Program-made: the position numbers and the translations under genes
The notes under the pieces: generated by a model
Database searches by the model: none
Seen by the model: only the letters and a program-made list of their open reading frames with translations
What the model was told of the DNA's origin: nothing
Shown: positions 12,662 through 57,951 of the stretch, piece after piece
Layout of the letters: each line of letters starts with the position of its first letter
Position numbering within the stretch: the first letter of the stretch is position 1
From: Candidatus Eremiobacterota bacterium
GTDB taxonomy: Bacteria; Vulcanimicrobiota; CADAWZ01; Ess09-12
Assembly: GCA_031082125.1 (NCBI GenBank)
Contig: JAVHLM010000005.1
Location: 186,001-250,000 of the forward strand
Length of the DNA: 64,000 nt
Reading direction: 5' to 3'

Positions 12662-13111
12662 GTGGGTTTGGCGAAATTCACAGGTGAATTCGAACATACC
12701 CTTGATGATAAAAGCCGCCTCATTATCCCCTCCAAATTTCGGACTTCTCTCGGCGACAAGTTCTATCTGCTCCGGAGTGTCAATGCAGACAGCATCTGGA
12801 TCATGCCCGAGACGGAGTTCAATCAGCTTATCGATGAGGTATCATCGAAAATCTCTCAAACGGATGTTGCGGGCCAGAAGTGGCTGCGGCTCCTCGTCTC
12901 CTCTGCCGTTTCCTGTGTAATGGAGAACCAGGGAAGGGTGCTCATCCCTCAGAAGCTAAAGGAGATAGCTGGCATAAGGGATGCAAAGGTGACACTGATA
13001 GGAGCCATCAACCACATTGAGGTCTGGAGCACCGAGAGATGGAAGGAACAGGAAGAGCAGGAGAATTTCATAGACCAGACCCAAAAGGTCTATGAAAAGT
13101 ATGGACTCTAA
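12662..13111 (+). CDS. mraZ: Transcriptional regulator MraZ
   Basis: DNA-binding regulator that heads the division and cell wall cluster. At 149 aa it has the two SpoVT/AbrB-type half domains expected: GEFEHTLDDKSRLIIPSKFR near residues 8-27 and ENQGRVLIPQKLKE near residues 87-100. The GTG start is preceded by a GGAGGGAGG stretch. It overlaps rsmH by 20 bases. In E. coli MraZ represses the dcw promoter and RsmH counteracts it; the direct repeats just upstream fit autoregulation. Confidence 0.93.
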   Translation: MGLAKFTGEFEHTLDDKSRLIIPSKFRTSLGDKFYLLRSVNADSIWIMPETEFNQLIDEVSSKISQTDVAGQKWLRLLVSSAVSCVMENQGRVLIPQKLKEIAGIRDAKVTLIGAINHIEVWSTERWKEQEEQENFIDQTQKVYEKYGL

Positions 13112-14054
13112 CCCGTTCCATGTCCCGGTGATGCCCGACGAAGTCCTGGCGTACCTCTCTCCCCGACGGGGAGGGATTTATGTAGACTGCACCATAGGAG
13201 GAGGTGGTCATTCACTTAGAATCCTGGAAGTTCTAGGACCAGATGGCATGCTGGTCGGGATTGATCAGGACCCCGAGGCAGTCGAGGAGATAACCGGAAA
13301 ATTCCATGGAATCAGTACCGTGAGAATCGTGCATGCAAACTTTGCACAGCTGGAAGAGATCCTCGAGCGCGAAAGGATAAAGGAGGTGGATGGAGTCCTT
13401 TTTGACCTGGGAGTGTCCTCGCATCAACTGGACAGTATCGCAAGGGGATTCAGTTTCCGAGCAGAGGCGAGACTAGATATGAGAATGAATAGTCAACTGG
13501 GTACCACAGCCTCTGATCTGGTCAACAGGCTCTCGGTAAAAGAGTTGGAGAGGATCTTCTGGGAGTATGGAAATGAACGGTGGGCGCGGAGGATTGCCCG
13601 AAGGATCGAAACGATCCGCAGGCACCAGCCCATACACACGACTCTGGAACTGGCACGTTGTGTCGAAGCGTGCGTCCCTGGGGAGCGGCGAAAAAGAACG
13701 CTGCACCCTGCCACGAAAGTGTTCATGGCCTTAAGGATTGCAGTAAACCGCGAAATGCAGTGCTTACACGAGGGACTCGAAGCAGCAATACGTGTGACAA
13801 GGTCCGGAGGAACGATAGTGGTCATCTCCTATCACTCCCTGGAGGACCGTATGGTGAAGACAAAATTCCGGGAACTCTCAAGAGAGGTATCGGAGCCCTT
13901 CACGGAACACGAGGTGGGTCTTCCAAAGAAGAGACTGTCCATACTGACGAGGAAGCCTCTTGTGCCAAAAGCACAGGAGGTGGCACGGAATCCAAGAGCC
14001 CGTTCGGCGAAATTAAGGGCTGTAAAGGTAGAGATTAAGGAGGTAAATAAGTAA
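13092..14054 (+). CDS. rsmH: 16S rRNA (cytosine1402-N4)-methyltransferase
   Basis: SAM-dependent enzyme that methylates C1402 in the decoding centre of 16S rRNA. At about 320 aa it has HVPVMPDEVL at the start, the SAM loop DCTIGGGGHS, GIDQDPEA, the DGVLFDLGVSSHQLD segment, and ISYHSLEDRMVK near the end. Start choice is open between ATG 13092 and ATG 13101; the second gives MDSNPFHVPV. It overlaps mraZ and is followed immediately by ftsL, the classic order. Confidence 0.94.
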   Translation: MKSMDSNPFHVPVMPDEVLAYLSPRRGGIYVDCTIGGGGHSLRILEVLGPDGMLVGIDQDPEAVEEITGKFHGISTVRIVHANFAQLEEILERERIKEVDGVLFDLGVSSHQLDSIARGFSFRAEARLDMRMNSQLGTTASDLVNRLSVKELERIFWEYGNERWARRIARRIETIRRHQPIHTTLELARCVEACVPGERRKRTLHPATKVFMALRIAVNREMQCLHEGLEAAIRVTRSGGTIVVISYHSLEDRMVKTKFRELSREVSEPFTEHEVGLPKKRLSILTRKPLVPKAQEVARNPRARSAKLRAVKVEIKEVNK

Positions 14055-14471
14055 TTGCTAGCCGTCTCCCGCAAAAACGAACAATTACATAGGGTTAAGA
14101 GAGGGTCATGCCATGGGACAATGGCCGACAGAAACCGTGGTGTCTCAACGCTTACGGTGTCAATGTATGTCGCAGGTCTCGTGGGAGTGGCCGCCATGCT
14201 CATTATGTATCTCTGTCTGTGCGCCCAGATCGTAAGCTGCCAGTACAAAATTTGCCGGCTAAAGGAAACAAAGTCTACTTTAGAACGGTCGCGGTTGTCA
14301 CTGAAGCTTGAAGTCAATAGACTTAATGCTCTGGAGCGTATTGAAGCCATTGCTCGGACCCAATTGGGAATGTCACAACCCCCTGTGAGACTGGTACTCG
14401 ACATGCGTCAGCCAGTGGCCCGGACTTCCTTGGAGGATGTTGTTGCGGTAGAAAAGATTCCGAAAAACTGA
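14055..14471 (+). CDS. ftsL: FtsL-like cell division protein
   Basis: Small bitopic membrane protein of the divisome, expected to form a complex with FtsQ/DivIB and a DivIC-type partner. It shows a cytoplasmic N-terminus, one membrane segment (about residues 35-57, VAGLVGVAAMLIMYLCLC), then a coiled coil (LKETKSTLERSRLSLKLEVNRLNALERIE) ending in IARTQLGM, the usual FtsL end motif. Identification rests on this layout and position between rsmH and ftsI. The TTG start directly after the rsmH stop has AAGGAGG eleven bases upstream; ATG 14121 would give 116 aa but lacks a good site. Confidence 0.75.
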   Translation: MLAVSRKNEQLHRVKRGSCHGTMADRNRGVSTLTVSMYVAGLVGVAAMLIMYLCLCAQIVSCQYKICRLKETKSTLERSRLSLKLEVNRLNALERIEAIARTQLGMSQPPVRLVLDMRQPVARTSLEDVVAVEKIPKN

Positions 14472-14486
14472 TTCCAGGAAGATTCA

Positions 14487-14775
14487 GGATCGAAGAGAGA
14501 AGGTGGCATGGTTAAGCTGGGCCGTTTGACCAAAGACCAGGAAACCCTTCGATCCGGAGAGGGGACTACGAATGGTAATCTTAATCTGGAAAAAAGGTGG
14601 CTGGAAACAATTCTCTGAGGCCACCGTGGACAGCAAGTAAAGGGTAAGACGGGGGATGCGAAGGAGGGTACATCGCTCCCCCGTCTCCCAAAGCACAAAA
14701 CCGTTCAACAGAATAAAAGGCTACCCACGAAGGGGGTGAAGAACTCACCCTCGTTCGTCATTCATGGAGCATGAA
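14487..14775 (+). other. Run of stem-loops between ftsL and ftsI: structured RNA candidate
   Basis: The 399-base gap between ftsL and ftsI holds no supportable gene but five consecutive dyads. These are a 9-bp perfect pair (14487-14495 with 14547-14555), a 6-bp pair (14596-14601 with 14620-14625) and a 10-bp perfect pair continuing as GCGA/TCGC after one bulge (14647-14661 with 14673-14686). A 13-bp arm with one bulge and one G-U follows (14727-14739 with 14745-14758), then TTCATG-GAG-CATGAA (14761-14775). A weaker set follows at 14811-14835. There is no U-run after any of them. It could be an ftsI leader, a riboswitch-like element or an independent RNA; no known family was recognised. Confidence 0.45.
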
Positions 14776-14870
14776 ATTCAGGCCGGCTCTGTACCCAGCA
14801 GCGAGCTTTCGTGAGTCACCGAAGGCTCACCGGTGGGATCAGGGTGTGAAGGCCAAGAGGGAGGTTTTTC

Positions 14871-16613
14871 GTGATAGGATGGAATATCAAGGTAAGAAAG
14901 AGACTGGTACTTCTCTTCTACATGACAGCCCTGCTCTTTGTCTGCCTCGCCTACCGGCTTGTCACCATACAGGCATTCCAGAGCGACCGTTACAAGGCTC
15001 TGGCCGATAACCAGCACATAGGGAAAATTGAGATTCCTGCACTGCGCGGCACAATCCTGGACAGGAAGTTTGAGCCCCTGGCGAACAGCATCTCCCTTCC
15101 CTCCCTTGCCGCCGATCCCTCCAAGATCAAAGATCACAAGAAAGCTGCCCTTCTTATATCAGGCATCCTTGGCTGCGACCGCAAGGAGCTTGAGCTCAGG
15201 CTCTCGATACCTTCCACCTTTGCATGGATAGAGAGGAAGGTAACTGACGATGCGGCACGGAGGGTGATGGCACTGAAGATCGAAGGAATTTTTCTTCTCA
15301 GGGAATCCAACGGGAAAAGATTTTATCCCAAGGGGCATCTCGGCCTCCACATCCTTGGATGCACGGGAATTGACGATCAAGGCCTTGACGGTATTGAAGC
15401 CTCTCTGGATAAATATCTCAAGGGAATACCCGGCATCATGGAGACTGAGATGGACCGCGACGGAAGAGTCATTCCCGGCGGGGTCACCTCGATGGTGCAG
15501 GCTATCCCCGGCTATAATATCGTCCTCACCATCGATGAAAGTATCCAGTATATAGCCGAGAGCATACTTGACAAGGCAGTGAAGGCGCACCGGGCAAAAA
15601 GAGGCTCTGTCGTAGTCATGGATGCAAAGACTGGCGAGATACTCGCCCTTACGACAAAGCCCGATGTGAGGTCCTTCGATCCCAGAAGCAATGATTATAT
15701 GAAGCTCACCAGGAATGCCTGCGTCTGCGATGCCTATGAGCCAGGCTCCACATTCAAGGTGATCCTTGCCGCATCTGCACTGGACAGCGGCAAGGTCAAG
15801 ATGGAGGATCAAATACCCTGCGGCAGTTCCATCGATGTGGGAGGATGGACGCTCCAGAATGCCAATGATGGTTTTGGCGGCGGCGCCACGGAAAACATCA
15901 AGGAGATCATCACCTATTCATTCAATACCGGCTCTGCAGCCATCGGCCTCAAGATTGGCTGCAAGACCTACTTCAACTACCTCAGGAAATTCGGTTTCGG
16001 CTCCCTCACCGGAGTTGAGCTTCCCGGCGAGACCGAGGGACTTCTGCTGCCCCTCAAGGACTGGACCGAGATAAACTGCGCCACCATGGCGTTCGGGCAG
16101 GGGATCGCCATTACCCCCGTGCAGCTTACCTCAGCCGTGCAGGCCATTGCCAACAACGGCGTACAGATGAAGCCCCACATTATAAAGCAGATCATTGACT
16201 CCAAGGGAAACGTGGTGAGGGATTTCAAGCCTGAGGTGAAATCCAGACCCATCAAGCCGGCGACGACCCTCAAGATGAAGGAGATTCTCCAGAATGTCGT
16301 GGAAAAAGGGACGGGAAAGCGGGCAAAGGTGCCAGGGTATCTCTGTGCAGGCAAGACAGGCACTGCCAACGTCGTGGAAAACGGAAACTATGTGTCAGGC
16401 AAATACGTTGCCTCATTTGTGGGCTTTGTTCCCGCCGAGGATCCGAAGATTGTCATTCTCGTCAAGGTGGAGCATCCCTCGGATATTTACTGGGGTGGTG
16501 TCGTAGCGGCCCCGATATTTGCCGATGTGGCCAAAGAGACTCTCTGGCGCCTGGGAGTCCCGCCGAGTTTCCCTCAGGAGATCGGAAAGAATGAGGAAGC
16601 GAAAAAGCAATAG
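14871..16613 (+). CDS. ftsI: Penicillin-binding protein, division transpeptidase (FtsI/PBP2B-like)
   Basis: Septal peptidoglycan DD-transpeptidase, anchored by one N-terminal membrane segment (about residues 10-30). The dimerisation domain has the IPALRGTILDR block. The three active-site motifs of the transpeptidase domain are present: Ser293-TF-Lys296, Ser350-F-Asn352 and Lys495-Thr-Gly. At 580 aa it ends soon after the transpeptidase domain, so there are no PASTA repeats. The GTG start has AGAGGGAGG six bases upstream. It lies between ftsL and murE as usual but is preceded by an unusually long structured gap. Confidence 0.92.
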   Translation: MIGWNIKVRKRLVLLFYMTALLFVCLAYRLVTIQAFQSDRYKALADNQHIGKIEIPALRGTILDRKFEPLANSISLPSLAADPSKIKDHKKAALLISGILGCDRKELELRLSIPSTFAWIERKVTDDAARRVMALKIEGIFLLRESNGKRFYPKGHLGLHILGCTGIDDQGLDGIEASLDKYLKGIPGIMETEMDRDGRVIPGGVTSMVQAIPGYNIVLTIDESIQYIAESILDKAVKAHRAKRGSVVVMDAKTGEILALTTKPDVRSFDPRSNDYMKLTRNACVCDAYEPGSTFKVILAASALDSGKVKMEDQIPCGSSIDVGGWTLQNANDGFGGGATENIKEIITYSFNTGSAAIGLKIGCKTYFNYLRKFGFGSLTGVELPGETEGLLLPLKDWTEINCATMAFGQGIAITPVQLTSAVQAIANNGVQMKPHIIKQIIDSKGNVVRDFKPEVKSRPIKPATTLKMKEILQNVVEKGTGKRAKVPGYLCAGKTGTANVVENGNYVSGKYVASFVGFVPAEDPKIVILVKVEHPSDIYWGGVVAAPIFADVAKETLWRLGVPPSFPQEIGKNEEAKKQ

Positions 16614-16655
16614 GAGCCCCTCGATGGCGGGGAGCGAGTGCATGGAGCATTGCAG

Positions 16656-18158
16656 ATGAAGCTGAAAGAACTGCTGCACTCCATCGCGGATTCACACGTG
16701 GTGGGGTCTCGAGAAATCGATGTGACGGGGATAGCTTATGATTCGCGGCAGGCCTTTCCGGGCTGCCTTTTCTGCTGTATTAAAGGCTTTAAGGCCGATG
16801 GCCACGACTTTATCGCCGATGCCCTTTCAAGAGGAGCAAAGACTGTCTGCCTGGAGAAGCCCATGGAGCTCCCCGATGGGGTGGTGAAAGTCGTCGTGCC
16901 CCATTCCAGGAGGGCTCTTGCCCTCATGAGCGCCGAGTTTTACGGCCATCCTTCAAGGAAGCTCAAGATTATCGGAGTGACGGGCACAAACGGCAAGACC
17001 ACCACCACTTCGCTCATTGAGATGATGCTCACCGCGTGCGGGGTGAAAACGGGCCTTATCGGCACCCTATTCACCAAGATAGGCTCCCTCAAGACCACCT
17101 CTAAAGTGACCACTCCTGAGTCCCTCGATCTCCAGGCAACCCTTGCCTCCATGGTGGACCATGGCTGCGAGTGCGCCGTATTTGAGGTCTCATCCCATGC
17201 CCTTGAGCTCCACCGAGTCGAGGGCTGCGTTTTTGACAGGGCTGTGTTCACGAACCTCACGCAGGATCACCTTGATTTTCACAGGAACCTGGAAGAGTAT
17301 TTCCAGGCCAAGCTCAAGATATTCACCGCCCTCGACGGAAGGGAGAAGGATCAGGCCGCGATCCTCAATGCTGACGATCCTTCCTCGAAACGCATAGCGG
17401 AGCATCTTTCGGTGCCGGCTCTCACCTATGGAGTGCGCGATAAGAAAGCCCTCTACCATGCCCGCGATCCCCAGGTCACTTTTGAAGGGCTCAGCTATCA
17501 GCTTATGGCGCCTGAGGGTATCATTCCCGTCACGATCCCTGTCTCGGGAGGATTCAATGTCTCCAACTCCCTGGCTGCCATTGCGGCAGCCTCATCGCTG
17601 GGCGTGCCCCCCGCGGAGCTCGCTTCGGCGGCAAGGGAGTTTCACGGTGTAAAAGGCCGTTTCGAGCTTATCAGGGCAGGCCAGGAATTCGCCGTCATCG
17701 TTGACTATGCCCACACGCCCGACGGCCTCGAGAACGTGCTCACCACCGCAAGGCAGATCACCTCAGGCTCTCTCATCACTGTCTTCGGATGCGGCGGTGA
17801 CAGGGACAGGACAAAGCGCCCCCTCATGGGAGGCATTGCCGCGACCCTCTCAGACAGGATTATCATCACTTCTGACAACCCGCGCACGGAGGAGCCCGGC
17901 ATGATAATCGCCGATATCGAGGAGGGCGTGAGGCTTGCAGGGAAATCCTACGAGCAGGAAGCTGACAGGAGGAAGGCCATCTTCAAGGCCCTGGGCATGG
18001 CGCGCCGCGGCGACACGGTGGTGATCGCCGGCAAAGGCCATGAAAACTACCAGATTTTCAGGGATCGGACCATCCATTTTGATGACGGCGAAGTGGTCCA
18101 TGAATTCTTCAAAGAACTCGTCTCCCGTGACGAGAAAGGAGAGCAGTGCGCAAAGTGA
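16656..18158 (+). CDS. murE: UDP-MurNAc-tripeptide synthetase (meso-DAP adding)
   Basis: ATP-dependent Mur ligase that adds the third amino acid to UDP-MurNAc-L-Ala-D-Glu. The ATP loop GVTGTNGKTTTTSLIE is near residue 108, with the HSRR and SSHAL motifs downstream. The specificity motif reads DNPRTEEPG; DNPR is the version found in meso-diaminopimelate-adding enzymes, so the peptidoglycan should carry meso-DAP. ATG at 16656 gives 500 aa; a GTG 18 bases earlier is possible. It overlaps murF by 13 bases. Confidence 0.94.
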   Translation: MKLKELLHSIADSHVVGSREIDVTGIAYDSRQAFPGCLFCCIKGFKADGHDFIADALSRGAKTVCLEKPMELPDGVVKVVVPHSRRALALMSAEFYGHPSRKLKIIGVTGTNGKTTTTSLIEMMLTACGVKTGLIGTLFTKIGSLKTTSKVTTPESLDLQATLASMVDHGCECAVFEVSSHALELHRVEGCVFDRAVFTNLTQDHLDFHRNLEEYFQAKLKIFTALDGREKDQAAILNADDPSSKRIAEHLSVPALTYGVRDKKALYHARDPQVTFEGLSYQLMAPEGIIPVTIPVSGGFNVSNSLAAIAAASSLGVPPAELASAAREFHGVKGRFELIRAGQEFAVIVDYAHTPDGLENVLTTARQITSGSLITVFGCGGDRDRTKRPLMGGIAATLSDRIIITSDNPRTEEPGMIIADIEEGVRLAGKSYEQEADRRKAIFKALGMARRGDTVVIAGKGHENYQIFRDRTIHFDDGEVVHEFFKELVSRDEKGEQCAK

Positions 18159-26707: not shown

Positions 26708-26720
26708 GCACAGAGAAAGA

Positions 26721-26758
26721 ACAGTGAGCAACCAATACTGGTATACGGTGCTCACTGT
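26721..26758 (+). repeat. Perfect 10-bp inverted repeat between ftsQ and the DUF881 gene
   Basis: ACAGTGAGCA and TGCTCACTGT pair perfectly around an 18-base loop. No U-run follows, so this is not a standard terminator. It stands 13 bases before the ATG of the next gene and could sequester the start region, act as an RNA processing site, or be an operator. Confidence 0.6.
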
Positions 26759-26771
26759 GGCATAATAACCT

Positions 26772-27539
26772 ATGGAGAAAGAATCTCAGAGCGCGAGAGA
26801 GAAAAAAATACGGTCAAGGGAGCAGTGGGAGATCCCCGTTGCTTTTGCCTGCGTGGTCCTGGGAATCATGATGGCCCTCCTCTTCAGGTTACAGAAAAAG
26901 GAGGGGTTCCCCCTTTACAACCAGAGGACCGATCTCATCAAGATGGTGAATGAGCTTGAACGCCAGCGCAACAAGCTGGAGAGCGATCTCACCGACAAGA
27001 AGAAAAGGCTTGAAGAGTTTGAGTCTGCCGCAGGGAAAGAGGAAGATGTCCTCAAGGCAATGAAGAATCAGCTGGAGACAGCCCGCATGGAAGCAGGTTT
27101 TCTGCCGGTCAAGGGGCCCGGGATAGTGGTGGAGCTCAATGACTCCCCCAAGAGTCCCTCCCCGAAGGATGATCCCTTCTATTTCATCATTCACGATGTG
27201 GATCTTGACACTCTTGTCAATGAGCTGTGGGCCTCGGGTGCCGAGGCCGTCTCGATAAACGATCAAAGGATCGTGACCACGACGGCAATCCGCTGCGTCG
27301 GCCCCACGGTGCTTATCAACTCTGTCCGCATCGCGGCGCCTTACAAGGTGGCTGCCATAGGCCCTTCCAAGGACATGGAGGGGGCGCTGAGGACTCCGGG
27401 AGGCTTTATGGATTATATGGCCCCCGCCATGCAGCATGGGGTCACCCTGAGGATAAACAGGTACGAGACCGTCGATGTGCCGGAGTTCAAGGGGAGCCTT
27501 ATGCTCCGTTATGCAAAAGTAAAGTCAGAGGTGGAATAA
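26772..27539 (+). CDS. DUF881 family membrane-anchored protein (YlxW/YlxX-like)
   Basis: The protein has a basic N-terminus, one membrane segment (about residues 22-42), a coiled coil (NELERQRNKLESDLTDKKKR, continuing to about residue 110), then the DUF881 domain with GPGIVVELNDSP, LVNELWASGAEAVSINDQR and IAAPYKVAAIG. The family sits next to sbp and ftsAZ in many Gram-positive bacteria; its biochemical role is unknown, and a part in septation is inferred from context. Length 255 aa is typical. It is separated from sbp by three bases. Confidence 0.88.
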   Translation: MEKESQSAREKKIRSREQWEIPVAFACVVLGIMMALLFRLQKKEGFPLYNQRTDLIKMVNELERQRNKLESDLTDKKKRLEEFESAAGKEEDVLKAMKNQLETARMEAGFLPVKGPGIVVELNDSPKSPSPKDDPFYFIIHDVDLDTLVNELWASGAEAVSINDQRIVTTTAIRCVGPTVLINSVRIAAPYKVAAIGPSKDMEGALRTPGGFMDYMAPAMQHGVTLRINRYETVDVPEFKGSLMLRYAKVKSEVE

Positions 27540-27542
27540 GCA

Positions 27543-27893
27543 ATGTGGATATTGATGGGCCTTTTTGTGGGCGTAGTGATCGGCACGATTCTGCCTCCCA
27601 ATTTTTCCCCGCCTTATGCTTATTCCAAGTATATCTCCGTCTCTCTCATCGCGGGAATTGACTCTGTGCTGGGCGCCGTGAGGGCGGGCATAGAAGAGAA
27701 GTTCCACCTGAACATCTTTGTGTCGGGATTTCTCACCAATGCCCTTCTGGCCGCTTTTCTCACATGGATCGGCGACCGCGTGGGCATTGATCTCTATCTC
27801 GCCGCCGTGATAACTTTCGGCGTAAGGGTATTCAACAATCTCGGCTATATCCGCAGGGACATACTCGCAGGCGGCAAGAGAGAAACAGCCTAG
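27543..27893 (+). CDS. sbp: Small basic protein, DUF1290 family
   Basis: A 116-aa membrane protein with three hydrophobic segments and the family landmarks MGLFVGVVIGTILP, YISVSLIAGIDSVLGAVRAG, FVSGFLTNALLAAFLTWIGDR and RVFNNLGYIRR. Such proteins lie between the DUF881 genes and ftsA in Firmicutes and Actinobacteria, and the same order is seen here. Function unknown; the context argues for cell division. It is followed by two hairpins before ftsA. Confidence 0.9.
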   Translation: MWILMGLFVGVVIGTILPPNFSPPYAYSKYISVSLIAGIDSVLGAVRAGIEEKFHLNIFVSGFLTNALLAAFLTWIGDRVGIDLYLAAVITFGVRVFNNLGYIRRDILAGGKRETA

Positions 27894-27901
27894 AGCGCCG
27901 C

Positions 27902-27931
27902 CCCGGATGCCGGTAATAACCGGTGCCCGGG
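27902..27931 (+). repeat. Strong imperfect hairpin upstream of ftsA
   Basis: The core CCGGT-AATA-ACCGG is extended on both sides to about twelve pairs, with two G-U pairs and one mismatch, closed by CCCGG/CCGGG. A second, weaker AATTTC/GAAATT pair follows at 27939-27962. There is no U-run. It may separate ftsAZ expression from the upstream cluster by processing or translation control. Confidence 0.45.
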
Positions 27932-27986
27932 AACAGGAAATTTCATGAGCGATGGAGAAATTCTCTAGCTTCAGGAGGAATGGAGA

Positions 27987-45026: not shown

Positions 45027-45040
45027 GGGGCCTGTGGAGA

Positions 45041-45077
45041 AAACAAAAAAGGAATGGGAGCCATTCCTTTTTTGTTT
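45041..45077. terminator. Bidirectional Rho-independent terminator
   Basis: A perfect 17-bp inverted repeat (AAACAAAAAAGGAATGG and its complement) encloses the loop GAG. The A-run on one side and the T-run on the other make it work in both directions. It ends the membrane protein gene on the plus strand and rpmB on the minus strand. Confidence 0.9.
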
Positions 45078-45094
45078 CAGGGTCCGGTCCGGTG

Positions 45095-45295
45095 CTACGA
45101 GGGAAGGTTTGTCTCCTTGAGGCGCGATGTCCTCAGGCACCGTGTGCATATTCTGATGGTCCGCTTTGAGCCCTTGTGATAAGCTGTTATTTTTTGAAGG
45201 TTCGGGAGCCACCTGCGGCGGGTTCTTCTGTTGGAATGGCTCACCTTGTTGCCGCTTATCGGGCCTTTCCCGCATACTTGACATAACGCTGCCAT
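45095..45295 (-). CDS. rpmB: 50S ribosomal protein L28
   Basis: Small basic ribosomal protein of the large subunit. The 66-aa sequence starts [20 protein letters not shown] and contains [15 protein letters not shown], both L28 hallmarks. Two Cys pairs (CQVC near the start, CTRC near the end) are those of the zinc-binding form. The ATG has GGAGGAGG upstream and its own promoter; the shared terminator lies 18 bases after the stop. Confidence 0.95.
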
Positions 45296-45352
45296 AGCGA
45301 TTCCTCCTCCGGTGAATGGATGGTTTCCTTTCTTTCAATGGAAAGCTTAGAT

Positions 45353-45381
45353 ATTTTAGCATAAAACGGCAAAGTGTGCAA
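45353..45381 (-). promoter_or_regulatory. rpmB promoter
   Basis: On the minus strand TTGCAC (45381 to 45376) and TAAAAT (45358 to 45353) are 17 bases apart, and TGC precedes the -10 (extended form). Initiation near 45346 gives a leader of about 50 bases to the rpmB ATG. Confidence 0.65.
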
Positions 45382-45486
45382 GTCCTTCGGAAAAATTTGC
45401 CGCCGCCTCCAGGAGGGCAAGAGGATAAGCGGCAATCCGCGGTGAAAAGCCATGAACACATACCGTACCGGTAAAGCAGGCGGCAG

Positions 45487-50354: not shown

Positions 50355-50383
50355 TTGACATTTGATAACAAATGATATATAAT
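50355..50383 (+). promoter_or_regulatory. Perfect consensus sigma-70 promoter
   Basis: TTGACA at 50355-50360 and TATAAT at 50378-50383 with exactly 17 bases between match the consensus at all twelve positions. The surrounding AT-rich tract repeats the word GATA/GATAT (50364, 50374, 50384, 50395), a plausible binding array for the HTH protein encoded just downstream. Such a perfect promoter normally needs a repressor to hold it down. Confidence 0.8.
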
Positions 50384-57627: not shown

Positions 57628-57637
57628 GGCCCCAAGG

Positions 57638-57751
57638 TTAATCCCAGAGTGCTCCTATGGCAGCAAGATCGGCTTCGGAATAGTCATCAGCCGTTGAAAG
57701 AAAGTGGTCATGGACTTCATTCAGATCAGTACGATCAAATTCCACCAGCAT
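57638..57751 (-). CDS. Possible 37-aa acidic small protein
   Basis: The frame MLVEFDRTDLNEVHDHFLST, ending IGALWD, is strongly acidic and starts with ATG behind AAAGGAG at ideal spacing. The frame is open further upstream (to 57910), but that part crosses a terminator hairpin and has no ribosome-binding site. No family recognised. It lies tail to tail with the pfkB-like gene. The ribosome-binding site is the main reason to believe it. Confidence 0.4.
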   Translation of the reverse strand: MLVEFDRTDLNEVHDHFLSTADDYSEADLAAIGALWD

Positions 57752-57820
57752 GGTGCTCCTTTCTTGGCGGTTTATGGTGCCGCCGGGAAACGTGCTCAGG
57801 CAGCGCCTGGCATCAAGGAA

Positions 57821-57858
57821 GCAAAAAGGAACCGGACTAGATTGCTCTAGCCGGTTCC
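57821..57858 (-). terminator. Hairpin with U-run on the minus strand, upstream of the small ORF
   Basis: GGAACCGG-A-CTAGA (57828-57841) pairs with its near complement ending at 57858, and on the minus strand the stem is followed by TTTTTGC. No gene lies upstream on that strand within reach, so it would end a short transcript or act as an attenuator about 70 bases before the 37-codon frame. The rest of this gap (57859-57951) shows no gene. Confidence 0.55.
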
Positions 57859-57951
57859 CGCATAAGAGTACTTCACCGGAAGAGGGAAAAGTCCTTCTTT
57901 CGGGAGCCACCAGAGGGGCAGGGGAAGGAATTATCTTCCGGCCCGATAAAT

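Follow-up and report, generated by a model that had tools for sequence, protein, structure and literature searches.

The mraW RNA motif of Rfam is located upstream of mraW in Actinobacteria. Inside the dcw cluster, predicted terminators with U-tracts are placed at mur/fts boundaries in Bacillus mycoides (PMC3762067), and no terminator was found within the cluster in Burkholderia cenocepacia and Escherichia coli (PMC7761207). No report of riboswitches or attenuators in the dcw cluster was found in the literature. In E. coli, stabilised operon segments can carry a hairpin lacking a U-run at their 3′ end, as documented at the intercistronic sites malE-malF and papB-papA; together with puf, these provide the precedent for hairpins without a U-tract that block exonucleases or keep a processed 5′ end stable (PMC5927463).

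The locus described here is the spacer between ftsL and ftsI in the dcw cluster of a 7.4 Mb genome, for which four other genomes of the same order (G001 to G004), all of another family, are available for comparison. The spacer is long, untranslated and highly structured, and every one of the order's five genomes has a structured spacer at this position.

Gene context and sequence searches

The window (the whole 64,000-nt stretch of DNA analysed) contains dcw genes in the order mraZ, rsmH, ftsL, ftsI, murE, murF, mraY, murD, ftsW, murG, murC, ftsQ, DUF881, DUF1290, ftsA, ftsZ. Names for murE to murC, ftsA and ftsZ derive from gene order and homology to relatives, and those of the remaining dcw genes from Pfam. 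The distance of 399 nt between the ftsL stop (14471) and the ftsI GTG given in the earlier note is exact, and the GTG start is considered sound since FtsI of the relatives aligns from residue 1. Pfam scores for ftsL fall just under the curated cut-offs (DivIC, E 4e-6; FtsL, E 1e-3), and its true start may be the ATG at 14121 instead of the TTG at 14055. Under a codon model trained on the long genes of the window, ftsL scores −0.10 per codon versus 0.20 for ftsI, a poor score that may cause automatic gene callers to overlook it. Further downstream, the genes for DUF881 and DUF1290 (small basic protein) lie between ftsQ and ftsA (window 26772-27893); the pair is kept in G001 to G003, and is also found between ftsQ and ftsA in Firmicutes.

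Table 1. Features of the region from rsmH to ftsI, in window positions; z denotes folding energy relative to dinucleotide shuffles
Feature	Position	Strand	Evidence
rsmH (mraW), upstream dcw gene	13092..14054	+	Pfam Methyltransf_5, E 5e-103
ftsL, ORF from TTG	14055..14471	+	40-55% identity to ORF at same place in G001-G004
ftsL-ftsI spacer, untranslated, structured, 399 nt	14472..14870	+	z −4.6; no coding signal in tested frames; single copy
5′ domain, TTCCAG/CTGGAA closing helix round 9-bp stem 14487-14495/14547-14555	14472..14591	+	z −2.6, moderate support
6-bp stem, alone no better than chance	14596..14625	+	z −1.3
Strong hairpin (3 + 10 + 4 bp) without U-run, strongest element	14642..14689	+	z −5.3 for 14636-14700
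Strong 13-bp hairpin, one bulge, without uninterrupted U-run	14727..14758	+	z −3.2 for 14715-14765
Small 6-bp stem-loop, TTCATG/CATGAA	14761..14775	+	stem present in the sequence
Additional 9-bp stem, weak	14803..14828	+	z −1.7 for 14766-14870
Shine-Dalgarno GGGAGG of ftsI	14859..14864	+	sequence; pairing not exceptional
ftsI (PBP transpeptidase), GTG start	14871..16613	+	Pfam Transpeptidase, E 4e-77

The spacer had been described as holding no supportable coding frame, and this agrees with both codon scores and Pfam. All frames tested on the two strands score neutral or negative, with exception of a minus-strand frame that runs into ftsI and has a marginal score of 0.03, and candidate ORFs have no Pfam match. 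A small gene in the spacer is nevertheless conceivable in the form of, for example, the 36-codon ORF at 14508-14618, which has an ATG with a weak Shine-Dalgarno sequence and against which the codon model is no bar, since ftsL itself scores poorly. Given the neutral or negative scores of nearly all frames tested, the missing Pfam match and the lack of similarity to the gaps of relatives, we regard such a gene as very improbable.

The Rfam covariance-model search suggested previously finds no family for the spacer at gathering or permissive thresholds, consistent with the earlier failure to match it to a known RNA. Homologous DNA was found neither elsewhere in the source genome nor in 37 other genomes of the phylum, plasmids, phages and IMG/VR. 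A repeat or mobile element (REP, MITE) was considered and rejected, since neither the genome nor mobile-element collections contain another copy.

Folding of the spacer

Folding of the entire spacer yields −151.6 kcal/mol, compared with a mean of −126.5 kcal/mol for its shuffles, none of 100 of which folds as well; on the minus strand z is −3.8. Flanking coding segments give z values of 0.1, −2.8, 0.0 and 0.7. The 64 kb were scanned in 639 segments of 150 nt, among which those at 14701 and 14601 rank 4th and 11th in structure. The same genome was sampled over 447 kb, and of 89 co-directional spacers between 60 and 450 nt long the ftsL-ftsI one is the 3rd most structured. By both rankings it is a genuine outlier, but not the sole one. 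All five stem-loops listed in the earlier note were located; the 9-bp stem at 14803-14828 is not in that list. Only the hairpins at 14642-14689 and 14727-14758 are strong individually, the remaining stems being weak or close to what chance would give.

A neutral origin has to be weighed against these figures. The spacer could have expanded without consequence in a large genome, its hairpins being by-products with no selected role: 8.5% of the sampled co-directional spacers are at least as long, other spacers are equally structured, and no sequence is conserved. Such folding is, however, absent from coding controls in the genome sample, and the recurrence of structure in the order, set out below, also argues against a neutral spacer, which we consider rather unlikely.

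No spacer stem is followed by a U-run, as had been noted, and no terminator-like site is present in 13900-15100 (1.3 in shuffles). The promoter scan identifies no sigma-70-like promoter in the spacer. Elsewhere in the same genome, U-tract terminators, hairpins with A/T tracts, are located at several gene ends.

The functions proposed earlier, an independent small RNA or a leader of the riboswitch or thermometer type that would control translation of ftsI, fit the multi-domain predicted fold, in one state of which the ftsI Shine-Dalgarno is paired with upstream bases. However, the ribosome-binding region of ftsI is not unusually sequestered: ranked by accessibility among 52 starts, the whole region is 7th and the Shine-Dalgarno alone 18th. 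A separate RNA would be expected neither from the promoter nor from the terminator scan, which find no recognisable signal of either kind. Covariance models built from the single sequence, one for 14640-14760 and one for 14472-14590, return self-matches only across the seven genomes searched. Since no homologous sequence or structure was identified in the source genome, the four same-order genomes or the other collections, a conserved riboswitch-like class is unsupported, and a leader or small RNA of this type appears improbable. The description of the spacer as an undescribed structured RNA is supported in that the stretch is structured and non-coding, but has no support, with the genomes compared, in the sense of a conserved RNA.

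Several other spacers of the window contain hairpins. The ftsQ-DUF881 spacer (26708-26771) has GTGAGCAACC...GTGCTCAC (z −3.1) and the DUF1290-ftsA spacer (27894-27986) has CCCGGATGCCGGTAATAACCGGTGCCCGGG, both without a U-run. Strongly structured spacers are also located at 57628-57951 (z −6.1, hairpin GGAACCGG.../CCGGTTCC) and at 45027-45486, the latter starting with a canonical A/U-tract terminator. At 50355-50383, a sigma-70 promoter that matches the consensus perfectly (TTGACA-17-TATAAT) directly follows a U-tract terminator-like hairpin.

The ftsL-ftsI spacer in related genomes

The earlier statement that ftsL and ftsI usually abut is confirmed by 69 loci from many, mostly other, phyla, where the two genes lie a median of −4 nt and at most 216 nt apart. 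In the source phylum gaps of 60-270 nt are common, and the five genomes of the order have gaps of 399, 272, 116, 88 and about 127 nt. These spacers are untranslated in five of five genomes and structured in all five (z −4.1, −5.9, −3.4, −3.0 and −3.5), compared with three of the 28 remaining dcw spacers in the order that reach 30 nt, namely G001 rsmH-ftsL, G002 ftsI-murE and the ftsQ-DUF881 spacer of the window. The enrichment at ftsL-ftsI (hypergeometric 2e-4; rank test, p 0.002) is from tests that take related genomes as independent and have more power for longer spacers. This positional recurrence, which rests on five genomes, is the more interesting part of the finding.

The stems themselves are not shared. 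Examination of the same gap in relatives, proposed as a check on a conserved RNA, reveals different hairpins in the four same-order genomes, and hairpins of different genera are unrelated in sequence. G002 and G003, both of genus g3, share a conserved outer stem, and their inner stem pairs anew with an indel; the changes are too few to test for covariation. The G002 hairpin is single-copy in the order and common only to G003. Further afield, gaps of roughly 60-130 nt in families f11, f12, f13 and f15 are without structure, an alignment of four f13 spacers yields no structural signal, and ftsL and ftsI nearly abut in several f9 genomes.

Some of the relatives' hairpins raise the prospect that transcription is attenuated or partially terminated between ftsL and ftsI and that the genes downstream are expressed by read-through. 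The hairpin of the G004 spacer is followed by TTTTTATTTTTTT, is flagged by the terminator scan and looks like a canonical intrinsic terminator. A hairpin of more than 20 bp ending in TTTTTT lies beside ftsI in L007 (family f7), hairpins with T-runs are present in L022 and L023 (f8), and the gene-boundary terminators predicted in the B. mycoides dcw cluster (PMC3762067) offer a precedent. The scan, however, flags L007 on the opposite strand only and L022 and L023 not at all, and every hairpin in the window spacer lacks a U-tract although the genome uses U-tract terminators elsewhere. Attenuation is for this locus an unlikely explanation.

Elsewhere in the order, the 264-nt ftsI-murE spacer of G002 (17343-17606 of joined L158, G002:C14; region 15343-17606) is MITE-like, with terminal inverted repeats that are long and near-perfect (AACTTTTGTACGGTACAA...TTGTACCGTACAAAAGTT); the corresponding spacer of G003, of the same genus, is only 14 nt. 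The rsmH-ftsL spacer of L157 (G001:C29) forms a perfect 25-bp hairpin, ATCGACTCATCTTCAAGCTTCGAAT... (z −6.6).

Proposed role and comparison with known systems

The reading we favour, tentatively, is that the spacer is a lineage-specific punctuation region of the dcw operon, its U-less hairpins acting as decay barriers or processing sites. As the relatives bear different hairpins at the same place, an ordinary hairpin element tuning expression within the operon is most likely, and not a new riboswitch; as the hairpins of the source genome are U-less, an mRNA processing or decay barrier is probable. Transcription probably runs through the spacer, with the hairpins acting on the message, since the U-tract present at other gene ends is missing and there is no sigma-70-like promoter.

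On this model, the 399 nt would be an untranslated intercistronic part of a polycistronic dcw mRNA, in which the two strong hairpins would punctuate mraZ-rsmH-ftsL versus ftsI-murE and downstream. By serving as exonuclease barriers, processing sites or both, they could cause the upstream and downstream halves of this mRNA to accumulate unequally, setting the level of rsmH-ftsL mRNA against that of ftsI and downstream. Translational coupling of ftsL and ftsI would be removed by an untranslated gap of this length, and ftsI would be translated from its own ribosome-binding site. In relatives, other hairpins at the same position, at least one of them terminator-like, may serve the same end, possibly via partial termination.

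A further speculation makes the ftsL-ftsI spacer a hot spot, in this order, for RNA elements that control the division transpeptidase in cis. Its 399-nt form would then be a previously undescribed multi-domain regulatory leader that adjusts ftsI and downstream genes, with fast-evolving attenuator-like functional analogues in other families; we think this improbable. Should the positional recurrence prove real, an RNA element would be giving different expression levels to ftsL and ftsI, two genes whose products cooperate at the septum. This would be a small addition to dcw regulation in a little-studied phylum, in contrast to B. cenocepacia and E. coli (PMC7761207).

Most likely, the spacer hairpins are a new case of an already known kind rather than a new RNA class. 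Like the mraW RNA motif, the spacer is a structured RNA tied to the dcw operon; unlike it, the spacer does not sit before mraW, and it matches no Rfam family. As in B. mycoides (PMC3762067), hairpins occupy dcw spacers, and G004 has one with a U-tract, but the hairpins of the window have none and lie between two fts genes. The closest resemblance in arrangement is to the decay-barrier hairpins of malE-malF, puf and papB-papA (Dar and Sorek, PMC5927463), which are likewise stable, U-less and placed between two co-directional genes. For hairpins of that kind unequal mRNA levels are expected. In contrast to malE-malF, puf and papB-papA, the present spacer combines several hairpins in a 399-nt gap, and does so within the dcw cluster of an uncultured phylum.
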